A program made the position numbers and the translations under genes. From Cristatella mucedo (Eukaryota > Bryozoa > Phylactolaemata > Cristatellidae), in NCBI GenBank assembly GCA_009760855.2, contig WPIO01000037.1, positions 852,501 through 916,500 of the forward strand: 64,000 nt of DNA, in the 5' to 3' direction. Below, piece after piece: positions 5,515 to 53,965 of the stretch; position 1 is the stretch's first letter, and each line of letters starts with the position of its first letter. The notes under the pieces were generated by a model. It saw nothing but the letters and a program-made list of their open reading frames with translations, was not told the DNA's origin and did not search any database.

Positions 5515-5755
5515 ACAGTTTATTGTACGATGCACGGAGCAGAGGGAATCACGATTCCCTTCGCCCCTCTATCCCACTCGAGTTCCCCGCTCCTTGACCA
5601 CGGCTGTGCACTGGCCGACCCTAATGGTGAGTCCACAATCTGTTCACGAGCGGGTTACCAGCCTTTGTCCAACCACATGAGAGGCGGACCGCAGTTTTGC
5701 AACGGCCCCTCTCGACGATGCTCCCAAAAGCTGTTCGCCAGCGACTTAGCCGAAA
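5457..5755 (-). repeat. Repeat D copy 1 (LTR-like, nested in LINE-C)
   Basis: Shares blocks with 39,263-39,645 and 58,256-58,930, including CACTGGCCGACCCTAATGG, a GGTTACC block, GGCGGACC and CGGCCCCTCTCG. Read on the minus strand, each copy has an AATAAA followed by a short 3' block, as an LTR R/U5 would. It splits the LINE-C relic, so it inserted later. No internal retroelement coding was seen beside it. Confidence 0.55.
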
Positions 5756-5759
5756 AGCA

Positions 5760-6260
5760 GTACAGGCCTGCGTATAATCAAACTACTCAGTGTACTCTCG
5801 CACCATCCAGCCCCAGGCTTCCAGTTGTCACTCAAATCTGCTAACGAAATGAAAATCTCTTTATTAAAAAATCGAGCCTTCAGCTCGTATGCAACGAATG
5901 TCTGGAAATCGCTTCCTGTTTCTCTGACCACCTGCAATGATGTTGAATCCTTTAAGTCTCGTCTGAAGATGCATCTGTTCCACTCAGCTTTTCCTTCACC
6001 GTAGTGCGCGCTTGGCGTACTCACCTGTGCATGTTTCAGAGCAATTTACTAACCAGAGGTCCTGGTAATCGGCGGCCCTGAATGTCTTTTTATAGATGCT
6101 TGCTTTAAGTATGAAACCGTGCATGTCATTTGCTTTTGGTCTTGCTTTCTTTCAGCGAGTTTTAAAGAGCATGAATAGAGATTTAGTTGTCTAGGTGCTA
6201 TGCAAGTGACCTTTAATTACTATTATTATTACCATTCCTATTATTATTATTTTTTATTAT
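5760..6260 (+). mobile_element. LINE-C 3' end
   Basis: Continuation of the LINE-C relic. The C-terminal RT-ORF motif WKSLP..., then FKSRLKMHLFHSAF, lies near 5900-5990 and is followed by TAG. The 3' UTR tail GAGATTTAGTTGTCTAGG leads into TTATTATT repeats (6217-6285). Confidence 0.8.
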
Positions 6261-7062: not shown

Positions 7063-8626
7063 TTCGCTCGGACGTCTATATGCCTATCAGCGTTCTTACT
7101 GTGCCGGTGGGCCGTCGATGACAAAATCAGATTGTAGTCTAATGCAGAGCTAAAAGGTCGGACGTTTGATATAATTAGATCCTACTTGCAGAGATGAGGG
7201 TTGCTAAAAGTTCCTTAGACTATACTGACAGAAATAAAGCAAAACCAGGGAAAGCAGTTTCATTGCGGCCCAGTTTGAGAGTTCCACGACTGCCAAAGAC
7301 CTTGACCTTTCCTTGCCTCCCGGGCTCTTGACTACTGTATGCTCACCGAAAGCCACCGTAAGTCACCGTAAGCCACCGGAAAGCTTGGGTGCGCTGTAGA
7401 GAGCACCCTCCAGAGGAACGCCCACCGAGTCTTAGTGGCACAGAGTTACAGTGGTATGGACACACATTCGAATGGACATTAATATAAGCTAATAAATCCG
7501 ATTTACTCAAATTGCATTAAACTAGTCTTCCCGAGTGAAGCAGCTCAATACATCTCCGATTTTTCCGCGTTTGTTTTCGTTAAGGCTCGTCTACTCGCTA
7601 GCAGAGAGCTGTTACGCTGTCAAGAAACCCTATACTGCAAAGTTTGAAGCTTTCATGATAATTGCCATACAAAGAGTGGGCAGTAAAAACATTGTCAATA
7701 AGCCCAACTGTAGCTTTCAACTTGAGCTTGCTTTACAGTTACAAAAAACCTTAGAGACCTCTGATTACCTCTGATAATTTTCATTATTTAACCGAACTCT
7801 ATTTTTTTCGAATAATCAGGCGAATTTGAGTGGCTGACCATACGCAGCTGATAGGAAGATCTTGAGCAAACATTGAGTAGCCTCGACTGTGCTGTAAACA
7901 TGATACGCGAGCACAGCACTGGAAACTAGGGCACGGAGCAACAACATACAACAGCACGGTCTGAAGTGCGAAGACTGGTCGGTTAGAAGACTGGCGCCCC
8001 AAGAAAGCGCCAGTCTCAAGCCTCGTATAGTAGCAAGGTCTTAGTCGTGCGTAAATCTAGATTCTTAGATAATTATAAATCTCGCTGCTCGTGGGCCTTA
8101 GCCTATAGTGGCTATTCGATAAGCAGTTAGTCTCGTTGAGCCGCCAGGTTAATAGTTCGTAATCTTGGACGACTGCAGTGTAGCCTCTGATTCAAAACTC
8201 GTGTCCTTCCTCGGAAAGACGGCATCTTATAGCTTCGTTCCGCCCTGGAGCCATCGACGGAGACCATTGAGCTTTTGTCCTCCGGACGCCTTTGCGGATC
8301 GGATCGCTGATTCCGATTCGCCGATCTGACGGGGTTCTGATTGGGTTGGCGTCGTGCTCGTTTCTGATTGGGTCGGTATCGTGGTGTAACAGCCGCTCGC
8401 CTCGTGAAGGCTGCTACGTCACCACGCCTCTAGCGACCTGCCTCTAGCCGTCGCGTAGAGTCGTCGACAGGTCTTGGCCTGCTGTCCGTCTCCCTCCTGC
8501 GATCAGATATCGGCTACTGGATGCTGCTGCCTGAGCGCCTCTGTCAAGATTGCCTGCATCGACAGGCCTTCTCAAGCTATCTATTTATTGATTCCCCTGA
8601 AAAGGTCCGAATGCGACCACCTAACC
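7063..8626. other. Unassigned
   Basis: No supported gene. A small tandem of CACCGTAAG-like units lies at 7345-7385, and near-duplicate CTGATTGGGT(T/C)GG segments lie at 8337-8390. The open frame at 7535-7774 has no known motif. Confidence 0.4.
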
Positions 8627-8809
8627 TATTGGTTCTCAACCTTCCTAATGCCACGACCCTTTAATACAGTTCCTCCTGTTGTGGTGACCCCAACCATAAA
8701 ATGATTATGTGCAAAATGTGGAAATGCGTGTTTTCGGATGGTAGGCGACCCCTGTGAAAGGGTCAATCGACCCTAAAAGGGGTCGCGACCCACCGGTTGA
8801 GAACCGCTG
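8627..8809. mobile_element. SPIN-like non-autonomous hAT element (MITE)
   Basis: 183-bp element. The left end TGGTTCTCAACCTTCC and right end GGTTGAGAACCGCTG form terminal inverted repeats (GGTTCTCAACC core perfect). Internal blocks CGACCCTTTAATACAG, GTTGTGGTGACCCC, AACCATAAAAT, GCGACCCCTGTGAAAGGGTC and AAGGGGTCGCGACCCAC match, from memory, the non-autonomous SPIN/URR1 hAT-Charlie consensus of tetrapods. Flanks ACCTAACC and ATATAACC agree at 6 of 8, consistent with an aged 8-bp hAT target duplication. The middle (the AT-rich part of longer SPIN MITEs) is mostly missing. It encodes no transposase. Confidence 0.85.
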
Positions 8810-9655
8810 ATATAACCCATAGTGAGAAGAAAAGCAGACATTTAACCGGGTGACTGGCCGATGGCCTAGCTGAGAAAGCAGAGGAACTTTACTTGTGACT
8901 GGTTCTCACTGTGGTACGACCCAGTCACGCAATATCGACAATCGACACTATGCAAAGCGCATGTGCACTTTCTTTTCAATCAAGTGACACACGACGGCAG
9001 AAACAAGATAGAGGGACGAACTCAGTTTACAACAGACGAGAAACAGGGCTCGTCAACCTTTTCAAACGATACCGCCGTTCAGCCCTTCTGAGTCTTGTGC
9101 ATCGTACTCATAAAAAGGTATCTTGGCCAAGGACTTTCGCTTTGCAAGTACGATTGCAAGATCGACTGAATGTTGCGGTCTCTGATCGTATGCTATTTCG
9201 TCACTTGAAAATCGCCCGAAGATATCTGCTGATGCGAAAGCGTGCTTGCCATTAGGCCAGCCATCATTACGAGTTGCCGTCGTTTTTTCACTCAACCTTG
9301 CACGTCGCGATCGTGTTTCCAAGGTTTTTCCGTAGCATGTCGCACCACCCTGGTTACCACAGACCTTTTTATCTTAAGCTTGCTTCCCGAGAAATCGCGT
9401 ATGCCATCCAGTTATAACTCTGGATAAGCTGGCTCGCTTTAGCTCGCGGGTTATCAAGACCAGCTCCGTGAAACACACGAAGCAATGCATTTACATGCAG
9501 GCAAACGCACTCGCGCACAAGCGTAAACGCGAAAATATGGCCTAATAAAAATCCAGTGAACTTAATACCATGGCACAGCAAGCCCTTCTCAAAGAATGCC
9601 ACATGCCACTGCAGACGGCATTGTCTGTAGCAACGTACAGCATTTACTCTAGTAG
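8810..9655. other. Unassigned
   Basis: No supported gene. The 114-codon + frame at 8911-9255 shows no recognisable domain or splice context. Confidence 0.4.
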
Positions 9656-9912
9656 GCATGCTATTCAATCATTCTGTCTGACTCATCCCCATCTAAGATT
9701 AGGAGGTCTTCCACAATGGCTTGCAAAAAAATGGATCTAGCTGCTTAGTTCTGCCTCGGCTAGATGAATGTAGTTTCCTTTTGGCTGGGCCACCGAAAAA
9801 AGCCACTAGGCCACTGCAGCTGGTGATGAATATGGGTGCAAGGCTAGTTTACAAAGCCCAGAGATTTGACTGTGTCTCCTTAGCTGAAAGAGATTGGATG
9901 GCTGTCGGCAGC
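9656..9912 (+). mobile_element. LINE-B segment of a chimeric LINE
   Basis: Matches LINE-B thumb-region sequence at 54.73-54.97 kb (TCTAAGATTAGG...GTCTTCCAC; the product reads LLAGPPKKATRPLQLV, equivalent to the 25.2-kb copy). At about 9910 the match stops and LINE-A begins inside the same open frame. Confidence 0.8.
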
Positions 9913-10668
9913 TCCACAATCAAGTCTGCCTATTTTCAGCTGCATAACATTGCTAAAATTCGGGCTTATTTAGATAAGGATACTACATCTAAGTTGGTCC
10001 ATGCATTCGTGACATCCCGTCTCGACTTCTGCAACTCACTGCTTACTGGCCCACCGACATGTGCGATCAGGCGATTGCAGCTGGTGCAAAACTCAGTAGC
10101 TAGGCTTGTCTGTCGTGAGCGTCGTCATAGTTGCCGCATCACACCACTTCTTCTCGCCGCCCTGCACTGGCTCTCCAGTCAAGCCAAGGATCGACTTCAA
10201 GGTTTTGTCGCTCACTTTTAGGTCACTTCAATCTTTGTCTCCAGCCTATCTCTCAGATCTACTCCTCCACCAGGCCAAGCATCGTACCACCCGATTTTCG
10301 GAATCCAACAGTTTACCAATACCTCGTACAAACCTAAAATCCTTTGGAGACCATGCATTTAGTTCGTATGCTCCCAAAGCCTGTAACTCACTCCCGACTT
10401 GCGTCAGAACATCCCCTGACTTGACCGCATTAAAAAAGAACTTGAAAACACACCTATTTAGGACAGCATTCAGGGGTGTGCATGCTGCCACTAACCACAC
10501 TTGCATGCTGACCCTGTGCATGTCAGCCCTAACCAAGTTATTCATGTTGTTTATCAAGCATGATACTACTCACCATTCAATCACGTTTCCCTTTGCAGCA
10601 AATGTAGAACGCCTAGAAAAAGAATGAGTTCTCTGGTGGCGCTTTATCAAGTGTATTGTTATTATACG
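9913..10668 (+). mobile_element. LINE-A 3' segment of a chimeric LINE
   Basis: From AGCTCCACAATCAAGTCTGC onward this is LINE-A: STIKSAYFQLHNIAKI, VTSRLDFCNSLLTG and IRRLQLVQNSVARLV, then in a shifted frame TNLKSFGDHAFSSYAPKA and LKTHLFRTAF. The 3' UTR (CAGCAAATGTAGAACGCCTAG) and the GCGCTTTATCAAGTG tail end near 10,668. The first part forms one 166-codon frame with the LINE-B segment (9721-10221). Confidence 0.88.
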
Positions 10669-15662: not shown

Positions 15663-16790
15663 GTTTTATTTGTATCTCCGTCTGTAACTCCACGAAGCCA
15701 CAAAAACTATGTGGGCGTTACGCAGGAGAGTTTTGTACAGCGAACTCACAGCCTAAGTGGCTTTCGGTACGCATTCGGTAGCTAACTGACTTCATCTCTC
15801 GCGATAATGAGAAAGTGAGAAGCATGGCAGAGTCAGGAGAGCAGTTGAGGTAGTGAGTAACATGGAAGTAGCAGCTCAGGACGGCTGGAAAGGATGTGCC
15901 ACAGTCGGCAGCAGGAGAGTAGTTGTCTTTTCGTAAGAATAGTGGAAGCGAGTTCCACAGGCTAGGACCTGCAGAGGAACAGCTTCAGTTGTCAACAGTC
16001 TTTAAGCGGAGGAATGGAACAGCCAATATATTGTCCATTCAGGACCTGAGGGCACGAGAAGGCTGAAAATGGTGCAGCAGTTCAGCTGGGTATAGAAGAG
16101 CCAAGCCGTGGCGGGCCTTGTGGGTCAGCGTAAGAATTTTGCTCTGTAACTGTTGATAAACCGGCAGCCATCCCAGGTCTTTTAGCAAAGGAGACGCATG
16201 GTCAAACCTCTGGGATTTTCAAACTAGCCTTGCAGCCATATTCATGTCCATCTGCAGTAGCCTAGTTGCTTTTTTCATAATTTAGCCGAAACAAAACTAA
16301 GGAGCTAGTTAAATTGTTTGCAAGCGACCGTGGAAGACGGTTCCTAATCTTAGATATGGATCAAACGTGATGGCGTGATGGCTAGCTATAGAAGCAGTCT
16401 TCTGAACGAAGCTTTTAAATTTTAGGCAGTTGTTTTCGAAAACTGCACCTAAATTCCGAGCTCGTGGTGATTGTCGCAAACCAGCATCACCTATTAGAAC
16501 AACAAAACCTTCTAATCCAGCCATACGTTTAGGGTGTCTTATGAGCAGCAGTTCAGTTTTATCGTCGTTTAGTTTCAAGAAACTTTCCGTCATCCAGGAT
16601 AGAATGTCGACAAGGCAAGCATTCAGTTTATTAGTTGCTGCAGCAGATTCCGGCGGTTTGAATGACAAATACATCTGAGTATCGTCAGCAAAAGAGTGAT
16701 ATGTTATTCCATGAGCCTTAATCACTTTTCCCACAGGTTGAGTATAAATGGAGAACAGTAACGGACCGAGGACCGCCTATTCATAAGGAT
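15663..16790 (-). mobile_element. LINE-B copy with FADD motif
   Basis: Minus strand. The 3' tail GTATCTCCGTCTGTAACTCC is at 15,669-15,688. Going upstream come the C-terminal ORF segment and a 141-codon open frame (16,309-16,734) carrying [18 protein letters not shown] (RT catalytic FADD loop), [26 protein letters not shown] and ARNLGAVFE. The preceding [15 protein letters not shown] block (about 16,740-16,785) is in a broken frame. It is 5' truncated just before that block. The dimension of the motifs is typical of L2/CR1-type LINEs. Confidence 0.88.
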
Positions 16791-18736: not shown

Positions 18737-20460
18737 TCACTTCGCAAACATTAAACACGAGTTTTGCACCAACTGCAATCGCCTGATCGCACATGCCGTT
18801 ACGCCAGTAAGCAGCGAGTCGCAGAAGTCGAGACGAGATGTAACGAATGCATGGACAAACTCAGACTTGGTATCCTTATCTAAGCAGGCCCAAATTTTAG
18901 CAATATTATGTAGCTGAAAGTAGGCTGACTTTACTGTGGAGCTGATGTGGTCGTCTAACGAGAGGTCACTTTGGAACATGACACCTAGATTTCGAGCTGA
19001 TTCAACAGGAGATATGCTAGCAGAGCCAATTTTGGGCGTCAGCATTTCCAATTCCTGGATCACACTGGGTTTGCCCATAACTAGTGAGTTAGTTTTATCA
19101 TCGTTTAGTTTTAGAAAATTTGCTACCATCCGTGTGCGGATGTCATCAATGCATGCAGCAAGTGAGTTGAGAGAATTTGAGGTGCTCGAAGGCTGGGAGG
19201 GATCAAAGCAAAGGCAAAACTGAGTGTCATCCGCATAGAAGTGAAAGCCGAGATTGTGTTTGGCAATCACATCAGCAAGAGGGAGAGTATAAACCGTGAA
19301 AAGAGCCGGACCTAGCACGGAGCCCTGAGGTACCCCATATTTCACAGGTACCTCGGATGATCTTTGTCCATTCACGTCAATACTCTGGAGTCTCCCACTG
19401 AGATAGGACCTGAACCATTGCAGAGCAGTGCCAGTGATGCCCAGGCAAGATGAGAGGCACTCTAGAAGAACTTTGTGATCGTTAGTATCAAAAGCTGCCA
19501 AAAGATCGAGCAAAACAAGCAGAGACACTCTACCCATGTCTGCATTCCTAAGTAGGTCGTTGTACATCCTAAGCAAGGCTGACTCTGTGGAGTGATTAGC
19601 TCTAAAGCCAGACTGGAACTTACTAGCAAGGTGTGAGGTTTCGATATATGAGTTCAGCTGGTCTGCCACGACCCGTTCCAGTGTCTTTGATAGGAATGGT
19701 AGAAGGGAAACTGGGCGGTAGTTGCTCAAGTTCTCTTGGTCTTGTGTCGCTTTCTTGAGAAGTGGCCTGACTACAGCTTTTTTGAAAGGTGCTGGGACAT
19801 GACCTGAGGCTAATGACATACTAATGATGTTAGTTATGCAGGGCAGCAGCAGATCAATGCAACGTAGGAGCAGGACAGTGGGAATAGGGCCCAGTGGACT
19901 TGTTGTCTTCTTTGATTGGAATCCGAACTTCGGCACTAGATCACTGGTGACCTGCTTAAATGTAGACATTGAGGTGCAGCCAGGAATCGGGGAACGGCAT
20001 TCTAGTGGGGATGCTGTCATCACAGGGTTGGACTCCCTGATCTTGTCTATCTTCTGCACAAAGAATCGAGAGAAGCGATCGGCTAAATCATCACAAGGAT
20101 CATCAGGTAAGGAGCTAATCTGGGAGCGGTTGAGGAGATGGTTGATCGTCGACATCAGCATTTTTGGATTGTGCATGCGTGATTAAGCAATGTTTTTATA
20201 GAAGTTAGATTCGGTCTTTGCTAGGATCGATTGGTACGACCTACAGTAATCTTCATATGCCTGTCGATGGACAGTCAGTCCAGATCTTTTGTATGCTTTT
20301 CAAGCTTTCGCTTAGTAGACCTGGCTAGTTTCATGTCTGTGGTAAACCATAGGCCGTCTGGGCGAGGGCGCACAGTGTGCATTGTCAGAGGTGCAAACTC
20401 GTTGAACGTGTCAGCTAGTGTCGTGTTGTAGCGATCTACCAATGATGACAGATCGGAAGG
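18737..20460 (-). pseudogene. Non-LTR reverse transcriptase (LINE-A ORF2), broken
   Basis: The 479-codon frame (18,737-20,176) contains most RT blocks: LSNYRPVSLLPFLSKTLERV, FRANHSTESALLR, motif A LLDLLAAFDTNDH, QWFRSYLSGRLQSIDVNGQ, GVPQGSVLGPALF, HFYADDTQFCLCFD (YADD catalytic aspartates intact), [15 protein letters not shown] and SARNLGVMF. A single stop (TAA, where the 47-kb copy has GAA) lies just before MHNPKMLM near 20,186. A one-base deletion in a T-run near 20,300 shifts the upstream part (20,275-20,460, RPRPDGLWFTTDMKLARSTK). RT would reverse-transcribe LINE RNA at a nicked target. This copy has no endonuclease domain left. Confidence 0.92.
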
Positions 20461-23094: not shown

Positions 23095-24427
23095 GTAATT
23101 ATAGTAATATCTTTATATAGTATTCTCAGAGAACTTGATCTCTTTCTAGGCATTCTAAATTCTGCTGTAAAGAAAGCGCGATCAAATATTTACTGGTGAA
23201 ATGCGCAATTTCAACAAGCATGGCATGGTTAGAGGTGAAATGCATAGTTTCAACATGTAAATTATGGTTAGTGGTAGCATGCACATTGTTGGCACGTTTA
23301 AGCACACACCGGACGAATCGCGTGGACCCACTAAATGTTACGATCAAAAGTTGCGTTTTGAGCTCCTTTTTTTAAATGTCGTCAAATCAGGGGATATAGT
23401 GACGTCAGTCGAGATTGAGTTCCAGGCTTTGGGAGCATACGAACAAAAGACGGGGTCTCCAAGAGATTTGAGGTTCGTATGTATGTATGTAGGTCCATCT
23501 GTAACTCCACAAAGCCGCAAGTGGTGCGATGTCCAGCCTGGTGGGGTAGTTCTGATAGGTAGGCTGGAGCAAGAAAATTAATGGACCTAAAAGTGAGAGT
23601 GGCACAACCTTCTAGTAGATACGCTGCTTAATTGAAGGCCAGTGCAGGTCAGCGAGAATTGGTATGGTGTTGCGACTGCGACGCTCATGACATACAATTC
23701 TAGTTGCCGAGTTTTGCACCAACTGTAAGCGCCTGATTGCACAGGCCGAGGTAGACCAGCAAGTAGTGAGTTACAGAAGTCGAGATGGGATGTCACAAAG
23801 GCAGGACCGATTGGGATGTAGTATTACTGTCTAAGCAAGCCCAAATTTTAGCGATCTTGTTCGGCTGAACGTAGGTAGACTTTACTGTGGAGCTGATGTA
23901 GTCGTTTATTGACAGATCACTTTTGAACAGGACACCTATGTATCGTGCAGACGCAGCAGGAGATGTGCTGGAAGAGCCGATTTTGAGCGTTTAGCTTTCC
24001 TATTTCTGAGTCATGCCTCATTTTCTCATAACTAATAATTTTTTATCGTCATTTAATATGAGAAAGTGTGCGGTCATCCAAGTGCTGATATCAGTAATAC
24101 GTGCAGCAAGGGAATTGAGAGAATTCGATGTGCTGGAAGGTTTGGATGGATCAAAACGAAGATACAACCGAGTGGCATCTGCATAGAAATTAAAGCCTAG
24201 ATTGTGCTTGGCGATCACATCGTCAAGAGGGAGAGTATAAACTGCGAAAAGAAGGGGACCGAGCGCAGGGCCCTGAGATCGGGCCGTACTTCAGCGGTTC
24301 CTCTGATGATTCGCTTCCGCTCGCATCACTCGCATCAATGCTCCCGAGTCTGTCACTGAGATAGGACCTGAACCATTGTAGTGCTGTACCAGTGATGCCC
24401 ACGCGAGATGAGAAGCGCTTGAGAAGC
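23095..24427 (-). mobile_element. LINE-A copy, 5'-truncated
   Basis: Minus strand. 3' UTR blocks (GCATGGCATGGTTAGAGGTG) at 23,215-23,290, C-terminal ORF at 23,340-23,470, thumb and palm to about 24,427. A 66-codon frame (24,018-24,218) keeps [18 protein letters not shown], where the second catalytic Asp of YADD is Ala (YADA). A LINE-B-like tail fragment is embedded at 23,470-23,520. Confidence 0.88.
23470..23520 (-). mobile_element. LINE-B tail fragment inside LINE-A
   Basis: GTATGTATGTATGTAGGTCC then ATCTGTAACTCCACAAAGCC replaces part of the LINE-A ORF end. This is a micro-insertion or template-switch product. Confidence 0.65.
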
Positions 24428-25104: not shown

Positions 25105-25206
25105 ACTGTGTTTTGGAGAGCTCGGCATCGGCAGAGTGGCTCTGAGCCTGAGTCTATGCGCGGCTATATCTGCAGAGCGACTGTGCCTGAGTCTGACTGA
25201 GCGGCT

Positions 25207-25848
25207 ACTCCCTTTTGGCTGGGCTGCCAAAGAAAGCTATTATGCCACTACAGCTGACTATGAATATGGCTGCAAGGCTGGTCTTCAAGTCCCAGCGGTT
25301 TGAGCACGTGTCATCTCTGCTGAAAGAGCTAGGATGGATGCCGGTTGAGCAAAGGATACAGAGCAAAGTTCTTACGCTGACCCACAAGGCCCGCCACGGC
25401 TTAGCTCCTTCGTACCTAGCTGAACTGCTGCATCAGTTTCAGCCTGTTCGCGCCCTCAGGTCCTGCGTGGACAATAAATTAGCTGTCCCATTCCTCTGCT
25501 TAAAGACAGTTGGCGACAGAAGCTTTAGCTCTGCAGGTCCTAGACTGTGGAACTCGCTTCCACAATTCTTACGCAACGACAACTACTCTCCAACTGCTGA
25601 CTATGGCACATCTTTTTCAGCGGTCCTGAACTGCTACTTCTATGCTACTCACTACCTCAACTGCTCTCCTGACTCTGCTATGCTTCCCACTTTCTCTTTG
25701 TTGCGTGAGATGAAGTCTGTTGGCTACCGAATGCGTACCGAAAGCCGCTTAGGCTGTGAGTTCGCTATACAAAACTCTCCTGCGTAACACCCACATGGTC
25801 TTTATGACTTTGTGGAGTTACAGACGGAGATACATTACATTAAATTAC
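25207..25848 (+). mobile_element. LINE-B insertion with a 39-bp target duplication
   Basis: 5'-truncated LINE-B. It starts at the thumb region (CCCTTTTGGCTGGGCTGCC) and ends with CAGACGGAGATACATTACAT and A/T-rich repeats. The flanks 25,168-25,206 and 25,849-25,887 agree at 38 of 39 positions. The long intact frame and near-identical flanks mark this as one of the youngest insertions here. Confidence 0.88.
25215..25787 (+). pseudogene. LINE-B RT C-terminal region, 190 codons, N-truncated
   Basis: Uninterrupted 190-codon frame: the thumb LPKKAIMPLQLTMNMAARLV, then LTLTHKARHGLAPSYLAELL, LRSCVDNKLAVPFL, LKTVGDRSFSSAGPRLWNSL and an end near RLGCEFAIQNSPA. It lacks the RT palm and the endonuclease, so it cannot retrotranspose by itself. 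The start given is where the element begins, not a true initiation codon. Confidence 0.9.
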
Positions 25849-28027: not shown

Positions 28028-29560
28028 GGGTCGTGGCGGACCAGCTGAACTCATATATCGAAACATCAAAAGCTGCTAGTAAGTTCCAGTCTGACTTTAG
28101 ATCTAATCACTCTACAGAATCAGCCTTGCTTAGGATGTACAACGACCTACTTAGGAATGCAGACATGGGTAGAGTGTCTCTGCTTGTTTTGCTCGATCTT
28201 CGGCAGCTTTTGATACTAACGATCACAAAGTTCTTCTAGAGCGCCCCTCATCTCGCCTGGGCATCACTGGCACTGCTCTGCAATGGTTCAGGTCCTATCT
28301 CAGTGGGAGACTCCGGAGTATTGACGTGAATGGACAAAGATCATCTGAGGTACCTCTGAAATTTGGGGTACCTCAGGGCTCCGTGCTAGGTCCGGCTCTT
28401 TTCACGGTTTATACTCCCCCTTTTTCCAATGTGATTGCCAAGCACAATCTAGGCTTTCACTTCTATGCGGATGACACTCAGTTGTGCCTTTGCTTTGATC
28501 CCTCCCAGCCTTCGAGCACCTCGAATTCTCTCAATTCTGCATGTATTTATGACATCTGCACATGGATGGCAGCAAATTTTTTTAAACTAAAAGATGATAT
28601 ATAAATAACTTACTAGTTATGGGCAAACCCAGTGTGATTCAGAGATTGGAAATGCCGACGCTCAAAATTGGCTCTGTCAGCATATCTCCTGTTGAATCAG
28701 CTCGAAATCTATGTGTCATGCTCCAAAGTGACCTCTCGTTAGACGACCACATCAGCTCCACAATCAAGTCCTGCCTACTTTCAGCTACATAAAATTGCTA
28801 AAACTTGGGCTTGTTACATAAGGATACCACGTCTAAGTTGGTCCATGCATTTGTGACATCCCGTCTCGACTTCTGCAACTCACTGCTTGCTGGCCTACCG
28901 GCATGAGCAACCAGGTGATTACTGCTGGTGCAAAACTCCACAGCTAGGCTTGACTGTCGTGAGCGTCATCACAGTTGCCGCATCACACCACTTCTCGCCG
29001 ACCTGCACTGGCTGCCAGTCAAGCCAAGGATCGACTTCAAGGTTTTGTCGCTCACTTTTAGGTCACTTCATTCTTTGGCTCCAGCCTATCTTTCAGTTCT
29101 ACTCCTCCACCAGGCCAAGCATCGTACCACCCGCTTTTCGGAATCCAACAGTTTACCAATACCTCGTACAAATCTCAAATCCTTTGGAGACCGTGCATTA
29201 GTTTGTATGCTCCCAAAGCCTGGAACTCGCTCCCGACTTGCGTCACAGCATCCCCTGACTTGACCACATTTAAAAAAAAATAAAACCCAACCTATTTAGG
29301 ACAGCATTTAGTGGAGCCCTGTGATTCGTCCTTCATGGGCTTATGCAGGCAGACACTGTGCATGCTGCCTTTAACCACACTTGCATGCTGACCCTGTGCA
29401 TGTCACCCCTAAACATGTTATTCATGTTGTTTATCAAGCATGATATTAATCACCATTCAATCGCGTTTCTCTTTGCAGCAAATGTAGAGCACCTAGAAAG
29501 GGATTGAGTTCTCTGAGGGCGCTTTATCAAGTACATTATTAATAATATTGTTATGTTTAA
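28028..29560 (+). mobile_element. LINE-A copy, palm to 3' tail
   Basis: Begins at VADQLNSYIETS (28,030), continues with FRSNHSTESALLRMYNDLL, a frameshift at motif A (LLDLRQL instead of LLDLSAAFDT), FGVPQGSVLGPALF, HFYADDTQLCLCFD (28,457-28,500, YADD intact), thumb, C-terminal ORF (RTNLKSFGDRALV) and a 3' UTR ending GAGGGCGCTTTATCAAGTAC plus ATTATTAATAAT. Several frameshifts make it inactive. Confidence 0.92.
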
Positions 29561-30498
29561 ATGCCAGCTTACATGCGAGCGAGTGCCAAATTCTGGCGCA
29601 CAGCTTGCGAATGTAAGCTTGTTTATGACTCCTAATTGACAATTGGCTGTCGAGCTGCAACCATTACGTCTACTGCAATCCGCGATCAGAGACCATACCA
29701 ACTGCTTAACATAGTAGCTCAGGCAGTTGGTCATAGCTCACCACGCAGCAAGCAATTGATCTGCACCAGCTGGCCTGCCAGCCACGCGTATCAGCAACAA
29801 GCTCGCCAGAAATGAACCGTGCGGAAAATACGAGGGGTGAAAATGAGCATGCAAAGGAGCGAGTTTGTCCAATATATTAGTAGAATCGTCACTACTCGAC
29901 ACGCCCATATTCAGCATTCTATGCTCGGCGTTTTCCTCACGCTCGTGTGTGTACTGGCCCGCAGCGAGCACTCAGCTACTTCAATACTGGTCGATGCGCA
30001 GAGAGGCCGCCTAGTTCTCGTTCATTTGCTCGCAGAGAAAGCGAGCGGTCACGTGCGACCACAGTGCTCTTCGAGAATGCAGACATGTCGGCAGAGTGGC
30101 AGCCTCGGATGCGCAGCCGCATAGAACTGTCACGGCGGGTGTCCACAGTGAAAAACCTCCCAGATATCAGTTGGCGGCCATAAGTCAGATGGAAATCGTG
30201 ACAAGACGTCAATGGAACCTACTGTAAGACGATAAGTTAACGACAACGGTGGCGTTCTCGTTTAACTTCGAAGCTAATGATCGTCATTCGTACATTCGTA
30301 CCTCCCAGATCGGCCGCTTCGACGAGCGTGCATGTCGCCTGCAGCTCAGAAAATTGAGTTAACTGAGAGAATCTTTCTCAACAGAATCTAGCATCTCGGA
30401 AGCTGACACTGCCCGCCGTCTGCAGCTACGGTCCAACTGCAGACGGCCGGCGGAGGTCGCTAGCAGATGTGAGCCACGAAGCGCGGTGAAGAGCAGTG
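29561..30498. other. Unassigned
   Basis: No supported gene. Overlapping frames on both strands (29,738-30,212) lack domains. Confidence 0.4.
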
Positions 30499-31075
30499 AG
30501 CGAGCGGCCGTATATCGCTGCTGATACAGAGTGTGAAAGAACAGGGAGCGAGCGGCCATATGTCGCTGCTGATACAGAGTTTGAAAGAACAGCGAGCGAG
30601 CGGCCGTATGTCGCTGCTGATACAGAGTTTGAAAGAACAGCGAGCGAGCGGCCGTATGTCGCTGCTGATACAGAGTGTGAAAGAACAGCGAGCGAGCGGC
30701 CGTATGTCGCTGCTGATACAGAGTTTGAAAGAATAGCGAGCGAGCGGCCGTATGTCGCTGCTGATACAGAGTTTGAAAGAATAGCGAGCGAGCGAGCGGC
30801 CGTATGTCGCTGCTGATACAGAGTTTGAAAGAACAGCGAGCGAGCGGCCGTATGTCGCTGCTGATACAGAGTGTGAAAAAACAGCGAGCGAGCGGCCGTA
30901 TGTCGCTGCTGATACAGAGTTTGAAAGAATAGCGAGCGAGCGGCCGTATGTCGCTGCTGATACAGAGTGTGAAAGAACAGCGAGCGAGCGGCCGTATGTC
31001 GCTGCTGATACAGAGTGTGACAGAACAGCGAGCGAGCGGCCGTATGCTGCTGATACAGAGTGTGAAAGAATGGCG
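30499..31075. repeat. 48-bp minisatellite, 12 copies
   Basis: Unit of 48 bases, CGGCCGTATGTCGCTGCTGA TACAGAGTKTGAAAGAACAG CGAGCGAG, counted from the recurring GCTGCTGATACAGAG. Copies 1-6 are exactly spaced, a 4-base GAGC insertion follows near 30,790, and the last unit lacks 3 bases. Because 48 is a multiple of 3, two + frames and two minus frames stay open (16-residue repeats such as SERPYVAADTEFERTA or RSLFFHTLYQQRHTAA). The minus frame runs 221 codons (30,426-31,091). Confidence 0.95.
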
Positions 31076-37199: not shown

Positions 37200-37620
37200 T
37201 TACAGCTATCCCCACATACCCAAAGCCTGGAACTCTCCACCAACTGAAATCGTGACTCGATGATATTTAAAGCGAAGTTTAAAAGTCTACTCGTTCATCG
37301 CGGCATTGGCTCCGTCCTTGTGAATTGTTTATTGTTTGCTTGCACGTGCTGAAATAGAGCATGCTGCTGCTAAAGTTAAAGTTAGCTCATGGAATAGCCT
37401 CATTACATAGCGGCAGAAGAACTTTACCAGTTATCACCGACGCTTGCAGTGGGAAATAAAAGATGGTGCCCATTGCGTGACTCGAACACACGGCCTGGTA
37501 GTAAAGAGAGAGCACCTCACCCCTCCCTGGGCTGAAACCCACAATTCCTTTTCAACACATGTCAAGTGCCTCGAAAGAGGTTGAGTCCTCTTAATGGCGC
37601 TATACGAATTTTTTTATTAT
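37200..37620 (+). mobile_element. Degraded LINE 3' end with a nested SINE-1
   Basis: Reads YPHTQSLELSTN and FKAKFKSLLVHRGIGSVL (C-terminal LINE ORF). It is interrupted by a minus SINE-1 at 37,388-37,527 and then resumes with GTGCCTCGAAAGAGGTTGAG, TCCTCTTAATGGCGC and TTTTTATTATCG. The tail is similar to that of SINE-2. Confidence 0.65.
37388..37527 (-). mobile_element. SINE-1 copy, degraded
   Basis: AATAGCCTCATTACATAGCG, ACGCTTGCAGTGGGAAATAA and TGCGTGACTCGAACACACGG (box B complement) in SINE-1 order. Confidence 0.7.
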
Positions 37621-39262: not shown

Positions 39263-39645
39263 CTGTTGTTTGGTCGCACAGTAGAGAACCAGCCGATGCC
39301 CAACACCGACAGTTTATTCCCAACACACGGAGCCCTAGAGCGCACGGCTCCCCTCAGCCCCTACTCTCACGCGACTCCCCTCCCCTGGTCGACTCCGATG
39401 ACTCATCGACCACAACGGTGCACCGGCCGACCCTGATGGTGAATCCACCATCTGGCCACCAGCTGGTCCATGCCGCATCAAAGGCGGACCACAGCAGTGC
39501 ACTGGCCGACCCTGACGGTGAATCCACCATCTGGCCACCAGCTGGTTACCGGCCTGTGTCCATACCACATCACAGGCGGACCACAGCTGTGCACCGGCCC
39601 CTCTCGGTGGTGTTTCTAACAGCTCACCAGTGGCTTATCAGACAT
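39263..39645 (-). repeat. Repeat D copy 2 (LTR-like)
   Basis: Minus orientation: TGTCTGATAAG... start near 39,640, AATAAACTGTCGGTGTTGGG near 39,310, and an end near CGACCAAACAAC. Internally a ~87-base unit (GCACYGGCCGACCCTGAYGG ... GGCCACCAGCTGGT) is tandemly duplicated (39,418-39,500 and 39,504-39,597). No flanking protein-coding retroelement is visible, so if it is an LTR it is solo. Confidence 0.6.
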
Positions 39646-41086
39646 ACAATACATACATACGAACTACACGGGCCACGACTGCTGCCGCCTCGTCGACGTC
39701 GAGGTGGCGTTCGCTGATGACTCACGGCGCTTTACTTTGCAGCCTTCGTTCAGGACTGCCACGTGATCCCGGCCGGCGTGCCTATTCTAAGCTGCACGGA
39801 TAAAGAGTTAAGAGCGTGCTGGCTCGAATAAGGCATCGGAAATCACGCGGCGAGCGAGCGAGCGAGCTTGCGTTCGCTTTCGGGCAACGGTTCGCAAGCA
39901 AGCGAGCTAGTGAGACGTCGGCGCCGGGCTCTGTTTGCAGAGGGCAGCGCTTCGACCTCGCCGTCAATCAGCGAGTCGGCCTCAGAAATACGATTCTTAT
40001 GAGCTTCTACTCTCGACGTGAGTGATCAGGCTCCCGCAGCGGCTGCACGCACAACTTCCTCGACGCTACCCCGGCAGCCCAGAGTGAACGCTTCCGCCGA
40101 CGGCAAATGAGTTGCAGCCGCACAGCGCCGACGAAAGTGCCGACTCGCACACACTAGTGGCAGCCTCGATGCAGTTGCGAAATTGCAAGCGAACACACCC
40201 GTCGGGGCGCAGCCAGGAGTTTGCTGCGAGGGCAGAGTGTTTTTAGTAGGAGGCCCGCCCACTCTGACACGTGCAGCCCGACTGAAATGGAGGTGCAGCC
40301 CGGAAGCTCTGCTCTGTAAGCCCCCGAGCAAAAGGAAAAACAAACAGCGCATGTCCGTAGTGTACAAATCGTGGTAGACTCGCAGATTTTACATGCCGAG
40401 GTCCTGATTTAGAACGCGACCGTTAGTTAGTCACGTCATTGTATTATGTCAGCCCTCTTAGGAGTAGCTCCACGTGACTCTCACGCTACGGTCACGCTGT
40501 TCAGATCCTTCAGTGACTACGGTTCGCCAGGGCACCTTCGGTAATTCGGATCAAGGGTGTCCTAGGACTTTGTCTCGACTTCTGAAAAGTAAATCTTCTC
40601 GCGTGCGGTTGAAATCCCAAAAAAAATGTATGCTCGCGCGAAATTTAGTAGACAAGTTCGTGCGGCGTTCACTTCACTGCCCACTGTCGAGATTTCTGAA
40701 AAGAACGAGTATACCTGAATTGGCATTAGTAAGCTAGATTGTATGCCACAATAACAAGAGATGAAAATGTATGCAAACTTTTTATAATCAATGCAGTTTT
40801 AGGTAGATATTTTCAGGTCATGCGGCCTTTCGTCCAAGAGGTTCCTTAGGCGCTTTTAGAATCTTTAGTTCATCCGTTAACTGTTGGTATGGAAAGCAGC
40901 AATCTTATTATCGTTCACAGATACAGCTAGAACGACTGCCGCAGCTTCAGATGCATGGTTTGCTGCAAGTGTGGCGTGGCCTTGACTCGAAACTAAGAAT
41001 TGCATGGATTTCAGCCCGATCTTTCTAACTATGTCTCCACCCAATGCAATGCACGCCTTTGGTGCTAGCGACCGCCTTTTTTGCAG
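39646..41086. other. Unassigned, upstream of the polymerase exon
   Basis: Catalytic-domain exons of the nucleotidyltransferase gene could lie here or beyond, but no GS...DxD motif was found. A GAGCGAGC tandem is at 39,850-39,868. Confidence 0.4.
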
Positions 41087-41297: not shown

Positions 41298-42860
41298 TGT
41301 ATGTATGTATGTACGTATCGCTGTCTGTAACTCTACACAGCCACAAAACCGTTACGCAAAAGAGTTTTCTATTGCTCACACAGAGCCTAGGCGGCTTTTG
41401 GTTCGCGATCGGTAGCCAACAGACTTCATCTCAAGAAACTACGAGAACGTGATAAGCATAGCTGAATTTGGAGGACAGTTGACGTAGTGAGCAGCATGAA
41501 AGTAGTAGCTAAAGACAGCTGGACAGGATTGCCATGGTCGGCAGCAGAGTAGATGCTGTTGCATAGGAATTGTGGAACATAGTTCCACGATCTAGGACCT
41601 GCAGAGCAGTCACTTGTGCCGCCAACGGTTTTTAAGCAGATGAATGGAACAGTTAATTTATTGTCCACGGAGGGCCTGAGGTAATGAGGAGGCTGAAACA
41701 GGTACAGCAGTTCAGCTACGTAAGAAGGAGCAAAATCGTGGCGGGCTTGTGGGTCAGTGTAAGAACTTTTCGGTATTGTTGATCAATCGGGAGCCTCAGA
41801 AGCTCCTTCGGCAAGGAAGACAAATGGTCACACCTCTGAAACTTTTTAACTAGCCTTGCAGCCAAATTCGTCACCAGTTTGCAGTGGCCTCTTGGCTTTA
41901 CGGTAGCCCAGCCAAAAGAGAACTGCAGTAATCTAGCCGATACAGGATCAGGTATATATTTAAATTTTTTGCCAGCTACCTCGATAGACAGTTCCTAATC
42001 ATAGATAGGGATCGGACATGACGGCTAGTTCCGCTTCATCGTCATTAAGTTTAAGGAAATTTGATGACATCGAGGATCAAATATTTGCAAGGCAAGCATT
42101 CAGTTTATCAGTCGCTGATATAGATTCCGAAGGTTTGAAGGACAAACACGGTGGATTATCGTCAGCATAGAAGTGATAGCAGAAGGGCCCGAATCACTTT
42201 GTCCAGAGGTACAGAAAAAATTGAGAACAACAAAGGGCCGTGGACTTACCCTTGTGGGACTCAACATGTACATGTTCTTAGCGACAATATTTCAAGAATT
42301 CTTTGCCAAAAAGGAAGAAGGGAAACTGGCCGATAGTTTGCTAGGACATCTGAATATAATCCAGGCTTTTTAAGTATCGGTCGAACGATGGACAATTTGA
42401 GTGACTTTGGTACAACCCCGTTATCCAGAGAAGCATTAAAAAATCTCAGTTATGGCTGAACTAGGTTTGTCTGCCAGTGAAGACCACTGAGAGAATGGTA
42501 CAGAGTCTTCAGAAGACTACTTTATTTTGCAAGGCTTTACTAAGATAGACATATAGCATACAAAAACTTCGGATTATCTTTCAACGAAGTTCGCAGGTGC
42601 GACTCAATAATTTCTTTAGTCGGAGGGGGCTTTGTGGATTCACGAATATGAGCACCTTTTTAGGTGAAGCGGGCCGAAAACTTGTCGGCTGATGAGCCGT
42701 CAATATCTGAGAAAGGAGACCCTTTGAGTTGGCTGGCAAATCAAATTGTTCACCGTCTTATTAATCTTTTTGGGTTCGACTGGCAGGACTTCGGTTTTCG
42801 AGTAAAAAGAAAAGAAAGACGTCCCTCCCGGCTTTCCCAAACTTCCACGTGTAGACTCGT
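41298..42860 (-). mobile_element. LINE-B copy, nearly full RT, in the polymerase intron
   Basis: Minus strand. ATGTATGTATGTATG tail and TCGCTGTCTGTAACTC at 41,298-41,331, C-terminal ORF at 41,426-41,668, RT palm remnants at 42,100-42,430 (the complement reads LNACLANI, FYADDN-like and a VPQG-like block in shifted frames), ANYRPVSLLPFLAKN near 42,310-42,380, and linker sequence to about 42,860. Many frameshifts. Its orientation is opposite to the host gene. Confidence 0.82.
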
Positions 42861-44310: not shown

Positions 44311-44765
44311 GGAAAGGCTGTGCACAAAATAAACGGACGGTATGTCGAATATGGAGGAGGATCACAAAACAGCGGGCCTTTTAAATCGGTTGCCATACTG
44401 GAAACAACGGGGACTCCTCGAGCTGCTGCAACCAATCATCGTGCTCAATCAGTTGCTCGATAAGATCATGACATGTCTGAGTAAATCTTCAGTCTCTGCT
44501 TACTGGAGAGCCGTCAGTACAGGCCTGTGGCCAGAATTCTTCCGTGAATTGGCTAAACCTTAACCTTGAGAAAGCGTAGCCGAGTGAAACCAAAAATGTG
44601 ACGTCAATCAAGGTATTTCATCGACCTGCTACGTGAAAAGTCGAGAACGGTCCTGCCGTCCAAATGTGCTGCTCAATATCAGAAGGCTTGTAGCTTTGTG
44701 ATGCCTAAGGAACTAATAATCGCTACTTACTCGTAGTGCTTAAATTATTTACAGTCATTTTAGTC
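44311..44765. other. Unassigned intronic DNA
   Basis: The + frame 44,342-44,563 (MSNMEEDHKTAGLLNRLPYW) has no recognised family. It may be chance. Confidence 0.35.
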
Positions 44766-45585
44766 GACCATATCAGCTCCACAGTCAAATCTGCCTATTT
44801 TCAGCTCCATAAGATTGCTACAATTCGGGCTTGTTTAAATAAGGATACCACGTCCAAGTTGGTCCATGCATTCGTGACATCCCGTCTCGACTTCAGCAAC
44901 TCACTGCTTACTGGCCTACCAGCATGTGCGATCAGGCGATTGCAGCTGGTGCAAAACTCTGCAGCTAGGCTTGTCTGTCGTGAGCGTCGCAGTTGCCACA
45001 TTACTCCACTTCTCGCCGACCTGCATTCGCTACCAGTCAAGCAACGGATTGACTAAGGTTTTCTCGCTCACTTTTAGGTCCCTTCATTCTATGGCTCCAG
45101 CCTATCTCTCAGATATACTACCCCATTAGGCCAAGCATCGTACCACCCGCTTTTTGGAATCCAACAGTCTACAAATACCTCGTACAAACCTCAAATCCTT
45201 TGGAGACCGTGCATTTAGTTCATATGCTCCCAAAGCCTGGAACTCCCTCCCGACCTGCGTCAGAACATCCCCTGACCTGACCACATTTAAAAGGAACTTA
45301 AAAACATACCTATTTAGGACAGCATTTAGTGGGTCCCTGTGATTCGTCCTTGATGTGCTTATGCGTGCTGACACTGTGCATGCTGCCACTAACCACATTT
45401 GCATGCTGACCCTGTGCATGTCACCCCTAACCATGTTATTCATTTTGTTTGTTTTTGAAGCATGATTTTACTTACCATTCAATTGCATTTCCCTTTGCAG
45501 CGAATGTAAAGCGCCTAGAAAGAGATTAAGTTCTCTGAGGGCGCTTTATCAAGTGTATTATTATTGTTATTATTATTATGCCTCT
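44766..45585 (+). mobile_element. LINE-A 3' copy in the polymerase intron
   Basis: Starts at DHISSTVKSAYFQLHKIATI, continues VTSRLDFSNSLLTGLPACAI and LQLVQNSAARLVCRERR, a small deletion, then RTNLKSFGDRAFSSYAPKAW, LKTYLFRTAFSG, a 3' UTR and the GCGCTTTATCAAGTGTATTA (TTATTATTATTA) tail. Confidence 0.9.
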
Positions 45586-46010: not shown

Positions 46011-46839
46011 TTCATCTTTCACGGGTCTAAATTCATCTGCAAGATGGCGAACGCTCGGCGCGACGCTGCTTCAGAATAAGCAAAAATAAGGGCCACTTGT
46101 CTTCGGAGAACTTGCTTCTTCAGTTGAGGCGATGAATTTCTGTACAATGAGCACTCAATAAATCTGTGGGACAGCGAGCCTTCAGCGTCCAGCTTCAGTC
46201 ATCGAAATGACGTTGGGGAGCGCTCTACTCCCGCCGTAATAGAGAAAAATACGCGGCGAATTCGAAGGAGTGCTATGGGCTCGATACAGGCTGTGCACAT
46301 TTCAATGAGCTAGAGAGCGCTACCGGGCGGGGGTGGGGCATCGAGCCTTCCTCGGAATGATTCGGCGTCCACTGTTAGAGGAATCTGCCGTTCCTTATCA
46401 GACTGGTGGCTGCCATATTTGTGTTCCGGGGGTCTAAAAGCGTCGGCGGGCTCGAAGCTTCCGAGTATGCGGCCCGTTGGGGAGGGTCACGATTAAAGTT
46501 ACCGAAGGGTAAGCTCGGACAATTACGCCTCCGGCGCTCCTGCTCGGTGAGAGTAGGCGATTTGAGGGGGGGACTAAAGTCTTTCTGGAGCTTCAAAGAA
46601 ACGCAATTACCCTAGTGCTTGCCTTTTAAACGCCGCTTTATATCCTTCGACTCAGGCACGCTGTACAGGTGCCGTACGGTAGAAAGTGGCCACGGGAATG
46701 TCAAAATTCAGCAGCGTCTCTATTTTTTTAGCCTGGCGACTTGGATAGCGAACAGAGGAGCAGATTCTTCTCAATAAACTGCAGCATTCAAGTGATTATA
46801 CAACCACATTTCCCAGTGATCAATGCTTGCTTTCATTAA
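46011..46839. other. Unassigned intronic DNA
   Basis: No gene was recognised. Frames at 46,375-46,615 lie antisense to each other without motifs. Confidence 0.4.
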
Positions 46840-49255
46840 TAATAATAATAACAATAATGATGCACTTGATAAAGCGCCCTCAGAGAACTGAATCTCTGTC
46901 TAGGCGCTTTACATTTGCTGCAAAGGGAAATGCAATTGAATGGTAAGTAAAATCATGCTTGAAAAACAAACAAAATGAATAATATGGTTAGGGGTGACAT
47001 GCACAGGGTCAGCATGCAAATGTGGTTAGTGGCAGCATGGCACTTGGATTTCGAGCTGATTCAACAGGAGAAATGCTGGCAGCCAATTTTGAGTCTCAGC
47101 CTTTCCAATCTCTGAATCACACTGGGTTTGCCCATAACTAGTGAGTTAGTTTTATCATCGTTTAGTTTTAGAAAATTTGCTACCATCCGTGTGCGGATGT
47201 CATCAATGCATGCAGCTAGTGAGTTGAGAGAATTTGAGGTGCTCGAAGGCTGGGAGGGATCAAAGCAAAGGCACAACTGAGTGTCATCCGCATAGAAGTG
47301 AAAGCCTAGATTGTGCTTGGCAATCACATCAGCTAGAGGGAGAATATAAACCGTGAAAATAATCGGACCTAGCACGGAGCCCTGAGGTACTCCATATTTC
47401 AGAGGTACTTCAGATGATCTTTGTCCATTCACGTCAATACTCTGGAGTCTCCCACTGAGATAGGACCTGAACCATTGCAGAGCAGTGCCAGTGATGCCCA
47501 GGCGAGATAAGAGGCGCTCTAGAAGAACTTTGAAAGATCAAGCAAAACAAGCAGAGACACTCTACCCGTGTCTGCATTCCTAAGTAGCTCGTTGTATACC
47601 CTAAACAATGCTGACTCTGTAGAGTGATTAGCTCTAAAGCCAGACTGGAACTTACTAGCAAGGTGTGCGGTTTCGATATATGAGTTCAGCTGGTCTGCCA
47701 CGACCCGTTCCAGTGTCTTTGATAGGAATGGTAGAAAGGAGACTGGGCGGTAGTTGCTCAAGTTCTCTTGGTCAAGTGTAGCTTTCTTGAGAAGTGGCCT
47801 GACTACAGCTTTTTTGAAAGGTGCTGGGACATGACCTGAGGCTAATGACATATTGATGATGTTAGTTATGCATGGCAGCAGCAGATCAATGCAACGTAGG
47901 AGCAGGACAGTGGGAATAGGGTCCAGAGGGCTTGCTGTCTTCTTTGATTGAGATACGAACTTTAGGACGAGATCACTAGTGACCTGCTTAAATGCAGACA
48001 TTGAGGTGCAGCCAGGAACCGAGGAACAGCATTCTAGTGGGGAGGTTGTCATCGCAGGGATGGATTCCCTGATCTTGTCAATCTTCTGCACAAAGAATCG
48101 AGAGGAGCGATCGGCTAGATCATCACAAGGATCATCAGGTAAGGAGCTAATCTGGGAACGGTTGATGAGATGGTTTATTGTCGACATCAGCATTTTTGGA
48201 TTGTGCATCTGTGATTCAACAATGTTTCTATAGAAGCTAGACTTGGCCTTTGCTAGGATCGATTGGTACGACCTACAGTAGTCTTCAAATGCCTGTCGAT
48301 GGACAGTTAGTCCGGATCTTTTGTATGCTTTTTCAAGCTTTCGCTTAGTAGACCTGGCTAGTTTAATGTCTGTGGAAAACCATAGGCCGTCTGGGCGGGG
48401 GCGCACAGTGCGCTTTGTCAGAGGTGCAAACTTGTCGAGCGTGTCTTGAGGTTTCGCGATTCACAGGTTATTTTAGAGGAGGATGTGGGCACTCACTGTA
48501 GATTAAATGAGATCTGCATGTGGTCAGATCAGCAGGATTTGGTAATAATTGGTTATGACAAAGTGCAGTTGTATGAGAAAATCTGGTCGAGTGTTTGACC
48601 CTTGATGTGGGTAGGGCCATGCACATGAGCCACAAGAGACAATCAGTCAGTCAATGCACAAAATATTCGGTGCTGAAAGCGTCAAATAATTTATCAAAGT
48701 GAACATTGAAATCACCCATAACCAGGAAGGATCGATTTCTTGCACACAGAATCGAAATGAGATCAAAGAAATCTGAGATAAAGGAGGATTGGTACCTGGT
48801 GGGCTACGATAGACTACTGTCACTATCGGTAGCTTGTTTTCGGGTGAGACCAAGACAATTGATTCAAAAGACTGCTTTGAGAGTACTGCAAATGGCTTGA
48901 AGTTGAATTTCGAGCACACGATAATAGCAACTCCACCTCCAGTTTTGATCGATCTAGGAGCGTGAAAGAACGAGAAACTAGATGGGGTGGCATCTTTAAT
49001 TGTCGGGCAGTTTATCGATTTCAGCTTAAGTTTCAGTTGGGGCGAGCAGGTCGATACCATTTCTAGAAATAAGGTCGCTTATTACTAGAGGTTTATTGCA
49101 CATTGAGCGAGGATTCCAAAGGCAAGCGTTAAGTCCGATGGAGTTACAACAGGCCTGATGACCACTAAGTTGGAGAGATTTACAATAACGCATGCTGGGG
49201 AGCGTGCAGAGTGGTTCGAGACAGTGCGCTAGGAATACCAAACGAGCGGGCACTC
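46840..49255 (-). mobile_element. LINE-A copy spanning endonuclease to tail
   Basis: The longest LINE-A here (minus). Tail and 3' UTR at 46,840-47,040, then an abrupt join to the palm (the thumb and C-terminal ORF are deleted), RT to 48,410, and an apurinic-like endonuclease to 49,255. No ORF1 was seen upstream. It lies in the polymerase intron, antisense to the gene. Confidence 0.9.
47061..49253 (-). pseudogene. LINE-A ORF2 (endonuclease plus RT), broken
   Basis: Endonuclease: LNACLWNPRSMCNKPLVISD near 49,070-49,140, a GGGVAIIV-type block and VTVVYRSPPGTN near 48,800-48,950, with the DFN catalytic block frameshifted near 48,710. RT: LSNYRPVSFLPFLSKTLERV, FRANHSTESALF, then a 25-base deletion at about 47,534 that removes motif A (LLDLSKFF where the sister copy has LLDLLAAFDT) and shifts the frame. 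Downstream come GVPQGSVLGPIIF and HFYADDTQLCLCFD (YADD intact). Losing the motif A aspartate abolishes RT activity. Confidence 0.9.
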
Positions 49256-49580: not shown

Positions 49581-49699
49581 TAGTAGTAGCAGTAGCCGTA
49601 GTACCCAAATTTGAAGCACCAGAACAGGCTTTCGGCCTCTTTAGACGTTTGTAAAAAAATTACAGCCTCTCTAAAAGTATTGTCATCTGTCTGGAAAAG

Positions 49700-49872
49700 A
49701 TTAGCATATTTAACAGCCTCGTTTATATAGCGGTTTAAGAGCCTTAACAGCTATCGCTACCGCTTGCAGTTGACAATAAACTATCACACCCGGCAGGACT
49801 CGAACCCACGACCTCGGTCGTGAAAATCGAGCACCTTACCTCCTGGGCAAATGCGAACCCAAATCGTGCCGC
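49700..49872 (-). mobile_element. SINE-1 copy
   Basis: TTAACAGCCTCGTTTATATA, CGCTACCGCTTGCAGTTGAC and CCGGCAGGACTCGAACCCAC (box B complement) in SINE-1 order. Confidence 0.82.
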
Positions 49873-52904: not shown

Positions 52905-53965
52905 CATGTTAGTTCCTTACCTAGTGATCTTTGTGATGATCTAGCTGATCGCTTCTCTAACTTCCCTGTCAGAAAGATTAGACGACACGATCAAAGAATC
53001 AATCACTGGGGTAGCAGAATACCCTCTGGACTCCTGTCCGTCAATTCCGTGCCGCACCTCAATGTCTAGATTCGCAGCATCGCAATTTCTACATTCAAGG
53101 AGGACACGAGTGACCTCATACTGAAATGTATTGCCCAATCAAAGAAAACCACTAGTCCTATAAACCCTGTTCCCACTGTCCTGCTTCTACGATGTATAGA
53201 TCAGCTGTTACACTAAATAAAAAACTCTAGCGCATTTAGCAGCTTCTTTTGTATAGTGACAAAAGAGCCTTTACTGGTAACACCACCGCTTGCAGCGACA
53301 ATAAAGGATTGCCCACCACAGGATTCGAACCCACGACCTCGGTCCCGACATCATGAAAGACAACCACACTACCTAATGAACCATAACGGCTCACCATGCC
53401 TAGCTAACATTATAAATATGTCCTTAGCCTCAGGTCATGTCCCAGTACCTTTCAAAAAGGCTGTAGTCAGGCAGATAATTAAGAACACAAGACCGAGAGA
53501 ACTGATGCAACCTCCTCCCAGTCTCACTTCTACCGTTCCTATCAAAGACACTCGAATGAGTTGTGGCAGTTTATAACTACCTCATTAGTAATGTAGACTT
53601 GGGTAAGGCCACTGCTTGTCTTGCTCGATCTGTCGGCAGCTTTTGATACTATTGATCACCAAATCCTTCTTAAGCATCTCTCATCTCGCCTAGGCATCAT
53701 TGGCACAGCACTGCAATGGTTCGGGTACCATCTCAATGGGAAACTCCAGACCATTGATGTGAACGGACAAAGATCATCCGAAAAACCTCTGAAGTGTGGG
53801 GTATCTCAAGGCTCTGTGCTTGCACCGCGTCTTTTCACAGCTCATACTCTCCGTCTTGCTCGCTATCGCCAAGCACAACTTAGACTTTCACTTCTATGCA
53901 GATGTGCGAATGATCAATGTTTGAGACATCCGAATCTCCTCGTGCGCAAATTTATGCTAAACCGA
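52905..53965 (+). mobile_element. LINE-A-related copy with a nested SINE
   Basis: Reads SSLPSDLCDDLADRFSNFPV, PTVLLLRCIDQLL up to 53,210, is interrupted by SINE-1, then resumes ANIINMSLASGHVPVPFKKA, LLDLSAAFDTIDHQILL (motif A intact, in shifted frame near 53,620), QWFGYHLNGKLQTIDVNGQR and GVSQGSVLAPRLF. It ends near 53,925 inside the YADD block (HFYADVRMINV, YADD lost). Confidence 0.86.
53222..53396 (-). mobile_element. SINE-1 copy inside the LINE
   Basis: GCATTTAGCAGCTTC, ACCACCGCTTGCAGCGACAA and CACAGGATTCGAACCCACGA (perfect box B complement). It splits the LINE codons between CIDQLL and ANIINMS. Confidence 0.87.

Follow-up and report, generated by a model that had tools for sequence, protein, structure and literature searches.

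The window, a stretch of 64 kb of DNA, carries at positions 8627-8809 (plus strand) one decayed 183-bp copy of a SPIN/URR1-like non-autonomous hAT element (MITE), as supported by alignments to an uncurated consensus and to a printed mouse copy. It has the short terminal inverted repeats (TIRs) of a hAT element: the left arm at 8631-8641 (plus strand; GGTTCTCAACC) and the right arm at 8795-8805 (minus strand; GGTTGAGAACC) are complementary at 11 of 11 positions, and each is set four bases inside the element end. The termini described in the initial annotation are thus present. The right end is intact (8795-8809; GGTTGAGAACCGCTG). At the left end, TATTGG stands instead of the expected CAGTGG, the TATT before the arm replacing CAGT; of the TAT-for-CAG change noted before, two of the three bases differ. 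Further inside, a subterminal inverted repeat occupies 8745-8786 (plus strand), with arms GCGACCCCT and AGGGGTCGC (8745-8753 and 8778-8786) that are complementary at 9/9 positions. Folded as single-stranded DNA, the element reached a z of -5.4, and none of 200 shuffles was as stable; the subterminal repeat takes part in this fold, which is expected to be strong because of the terminal and subterminal inverted repeats. The centre at 8704-8729 (plus strand) matches the SPIN MITE consensus poorly (18/26 aligned bases identical) and flanks the internal deletion or deletions relative to it.

Comparison of the sequences on either side revealed an 8-bp target-site duplication, a hAT trait that is present here imperfectly, as had been described. 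The left copy, ACCTAACC (8619-8626), and the right copy, ATATAACC (8810-8817), are identical at six of eight positions, and both have TA at positions 4-5. Of the 63,801 8-mer pairs with this spacing across the window, 359 reached 6/8, and 27 did so with TA in both members. hAT elements of the Buster group favour a central TA in the target (nnnTAnnn). We take SPIN to be a Buster-group hAT, and the duplication with its central TA fits this assignment.

The element was then aligned globally to a 225-base SPIN/URR1 consensus, which is not a curated model and was written out after the window had been read, so that the match is to be taken as a lead and not as proof. In this alignment 164/183 aligned bases were identical, with 42 gap columns that were mostly central, and the similarity ran from end to end of the element. 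Most gap columns fell into two gaps in the centre, one of 24 and one of 14 bases, which bears out the central deletion that had been claimed. The first 77 bases matched at 72 positions and the last 80 at 74, in agreement with the block-by-block correspondence proposed earlier, and the middle 26 bases matched at 18, so the complete centre of the 225-base MITE is absent. The centre varies among SPIN_NA subfamilies, and a full centre is not needed for membership. The 19 differences from this consensus comprised seven transitions and 12 transversions, three of them at consensus CpG positions, and the K2P divergence from it amounted to 0.068 for one outer block and 0.079 for the other. The alignment scored 228, compared with 25.5 for the best of 500 shuffles.

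Independent evidence came from two sets of mouse sequences. We refer to both as URR1, a name that is our own and not the label used in the papers. One is an intron copy within a printed mouse FDH gene region (PMC8376875), which was retrieved through a word in the terminus and spans about a third of the element. It shared 56/65 aligned bases with the element, and the alignment score of 78 compares with 25 for the best of 500 dinucleotide-preserving shuffles of the element. As the copy had been retrieved by a terminal word, 15 bases were trimmed off each end; the remaining core still matched the mouse copy in 44/53 columns and scored 57, whereas the best of 1000 shuffles scored 27. The resemblance to an actual genomic copy therefore goes beyond the termini. 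The mouse copy is itself decayed, matching the uncurated consensus at 94/110 positions with 20 gap columns.

The other set consists of two genotyping primers, R1 and R2, printed for mouse Ate1 in PMC2767504. The best ungapped match of R1 in the window lies on the minus strand at 8791-8810, covering 20 bases with 18/20 identities, and its next-best place reached 15/20. R2 aligned to the element at 15/17 bases with a gap of three; it adds little by itself, because better ungapped places for it exist elsewhere in the window. Both primers agreed with the uncurated consensus (18/19 and 18/20 aligned bases), which supports that consensus. As judged from these sequences, the right half of the element is anchored more weakly, via the Ate1 primers, than the left half. 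An Il1b primer that shared a SPIN word was judged unrelated.

Many hAT families have short termini like these, which would give some room to the idea that only the ends resemble hAT ends, and do so fortuitously. The observed scores of 228 and 78 lie far above the best-of-500 shuffle scores of 25.5 and 25, and the core matches the mouse copy with the termini removed; we consequently dismissed this explanation, whose probability we regard as negligible. The element is real and not a product of chance. Consensus, mouse copy, trimmed core and Ate1 primer together support its identity as a SPIN-family hAT MITE well, and we are highly confident both in this identification and in its insertion at this site. 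The initial annotation had also called the copy not recent, which is plausible given the mutated left end, the imperfect duplication and the K2P values, the latter being distances to an uncurated consensus.

With the SPIN and SPIN_NA MITEs of tetrapods, as far as the uncurated consensus represents them, the element shares terminal and subterminal sequence, length class and block order. The 8-bp duplication with a central TA is likewise common to it and to SPIN_NA of tetrapods, by the nnnTAnnn target rule, whereas the 42 mostly central gap columns, the poor centre and the mutated left end are its own. The mouse URR1 MITE is linked to it by the 56/65 match to the intron copy and the 18/20 match to the Ate1 primer (PMC8376875 and PMC2767504).

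The 64 kb contain no second SPIN-like piece, the next-best BLASTN match to the uncurated consensus being 13 bases long (E 0.48). A single visible copy is what one would see if vertebrate contamination or an assembly chimera had been fused to host sequence. Here, however, the boundaries coincide with SPIN ends and are bordered by duplicated local DNA, so that a chimeric origin would require a join at each of these two positions. Moreover, host repeat families lie on either side: L2-like repeat copies (107-712 and 9685-10665) that have relatives elsewhere in the window bracket the element, which favours a genuine insertion. We consider an artefact of this kind highly improbable. SPIN words returned no matches in viral contigs or in prokaryote genome contigs, and BLASTN of 8601-8830 found nothing in phages; an animal element is not expected in such collections. 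One plasmid match to the same segment (41 bases, E 0.7) was judged to be due to chance.

We then considered the genome into which the element inserted. GC content of the window was 47%, and the CpG observed/expected ratio was 0.92 overall and 0.84-1.03 per 8-kb block. CpG is strongly depleted in jawed vertebrates, so the undepleted ratio argues against such a host. The DNA probably belongs to an animal that is not a jawed vertebrate, and an invertebrate is likely. Composition did not favour any one of lamprey, tick and snail, which were weighed as hosts.

The landscape of LINE, SINE and gypsy elements, from which an invertebrate genome had been proposed, was recovered in part. LINE proteins with a reverse transcriptase domain (Pfam) occur in the window, and we take these LINEs to be L2-like. 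One family has copies at 18737-20412, 46836-48460, 28028-29560, 44760-45579, 9909-10665 and 23101-24426, which are about 66-97% identical in pairwise pieces; several of their 3' ends lie in ATTATT-type repeats. A second L2-like family is found at 107-712, 15671-16773, 25209-25841, 41315-42269 and 54319-55473. A SINE-like family with a tRNA-like part was also present (1200-1430, 53190-53420, 56620-56770, 49696-49844 and 37383-37525; copies 71-80% identical). ARAGORN called a tRNA-Arg(cct) at 56607-56680, which is probably SINE-derived since it overlaps this repeated family. The gypsy part had no Pfam match in 139 ORFs, a scan that omits repeat-rich stretches and that short or broken gypsy pieces could escape. 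Other repeats in the window include a minisatellite at 30489-31070 (48-bp unit, 12.1 copies, 94% match) with several reading frames open, and a dispersed repeat at 5596-5764, 39487-39653 and 58810-58960, the first two copies of which are 77.6% identical, the third having been assigned by eye only.

No host genes were recognised by Pfam among the window ORFs scanned, which were the set of 139 and two sets of 10. The larger set was drawn from 281 ORFs that passed a filter on length, complexity and non-repeat content and corresponds to 150 of these minus 11, mostly low-complexity or overlapping ones, that were removed by hand. Its three hits, one member each of three families with a best E of 0.00026 (nucleotidyltransferase model), were all judged to be due to chance. 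Four matches below the cut-offs were obtained in one of the smaller scans and none in the other. A search for RNA families in the window returned nothing at the gathering threshold.

The product of the ORF at 25197-25784, from the second LINE family, is 97% identical over 88% of its length to a protein (P0121) from a JGI-sourced contig that is 1,152 bases long, so that the JGI source probably includes sequence from the same animal or from one closely related to it. In a wider search with P0121, the named organisms were teleosts only, at 43-48% identity (among the best 120 of 4,759 matches). For the ORF at 18737-20179 the best match was 71% identical, and the named matches among the best 120 of 5,730 were teleosts at 43-47% and one Vibrio-labelled record. 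P0109, a LINE-type reverse transcriptase filed in public databases as Vibrio parahaemolyticus, probably represents animal DNA entered under a bacterial name. Viral contigs were also searched for relatives of two LINE proteins; 13 and 12 stretches matched by pattern and none was confirmed by tblastn.

Could the host nevertheless be a vertebrate such as a lamprey or a hagfish, in which case no transfer between phyla would be recorded and the SPIN identity would stand unaffected? The teleost names among the best 120 matches of each LINE protein, beside the single Vibrio label, point in this direction, and lampreys are proposed in PMC7093834 to act as vectors that spread DNA transposons from fish to fish. 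These teleost matches are just 43-48% identical, though, and mirror what the database names, and the CpG ratio of 0.92 is unlike that of jawed vertebrates. A vertebrate host is therefore unlikely in our estimation.

The hAT superfamily is old and widespread, and the element might in principle come from a hAT family that is endemic to its host's lineage and kin to SPIN through ancient descent, with no recent horizontal transfer. In the snail Biomphalaria glabrata, a hAT element that shares significant identity with SPIN numbers about 1,000 copies (PMC5440852), so that SPIN-like elements may have become resident in some lineages of invertebrates. Against such an origin, the non-coding identity of 72/77 and 74/80 to the uncurated vertebrate MITE consensus exceeds what neutral vertical descent between phyla would be expected to leave, and the non-coding interior, besides the ends, matches a real mouse copy. 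We hold endemic descent to be very improbable. Non-coding similarity this high is unexpected under vertical descent between phyla, and so the cross-phylum transfer proposed in the initial annotation is plausible: the SPIN identity on which it builds held, the invertebrate host is suggested by the CpG ratio of 0.92 and the LINE proteins, and the transfer itself is unproven.

SPIN in invertebrates had been mentioned there as previously reported, and this is correct; Lymnaea stagnalis is presumably a further host. According to PMC11614815, the triatomine Rhodnius prolixus carries SPIN, OC1, hAT1 and ET, and its elements are up to about 98.1% identical to those of opossum, squirrel monkey and bat. 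The SPIN of R. prolixus and the SPIN-like hAT of B. glabrata resemble our element as SPIN-type elements in invertebrates, by published description (PMC11614815, PMC5440852). Given these printed cases, an invertebrate occurrence of SPIN would not be a new kind of finding. OposCharlie1 (OC1) provides a parallel from a different family, being likewise a horizontally transferred DNA transposon with short non-autonomous elements: PMC3621081 describes a 192 bp non-autonomous form in the Tasmanian devil and occurrences in a triatomine bug and a planarian. SPIN hosts beyond squamates and Rhodnius do not appear in the excerpts of PMC8097297, PMC5331948, PMC11008031, PMC7093834 and PMC5791352. Among the literature matches listed we met no SPIN host in a further phylum, which is no claim of absence from print.

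A hAT MITE lacks a transposase gene of its own and is moved by transposase made elsewhere; hAT transposase binds the terminal repeats and the subterminal ones, cuts the element out and reinserts it with an 8-bp duplication. On this basis, a SPIN transposase (hAT, Buster-like) would have acted in trans on the terminal and subterminal repeats of the element, and cut-and-paste insertion would have left the 8-bp duplication of host DNA with its central TA. Part of the centre was lost, either by this copy or by the subfamily from which it came. After insertion, mutation changed the left terminus and one or both copies of the duplication, which makes renewed movement unlikely; the altered left end suggests that the copy is dead. 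Horizontal transfer probably brought its ancestor into this host lineage, as happened with SPIN in other animals, a conclusion of which we are less sure than of the SPIN-family identification and the insertion.

Taken one step further, SPIN may have entered an animal phylum or class from which it had not been recorded before, namely that of the host with the LINE protein that finds its 97% match in a JGI-sourced contig; we advance this tentatively, with somewhat less than even confidence. A single copy gives a lead but does not yet establish that a lineage was invaded. If the proposal is true, tetrapods, triatomine bugs and freshwater snails were not the only animals reached by this wave of transfer. 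SPIN is a textbook example of DNA movement between distant animals, and each new host, together with the ages of its copies, narrows the timing of these transfers and the ecological links behind them.
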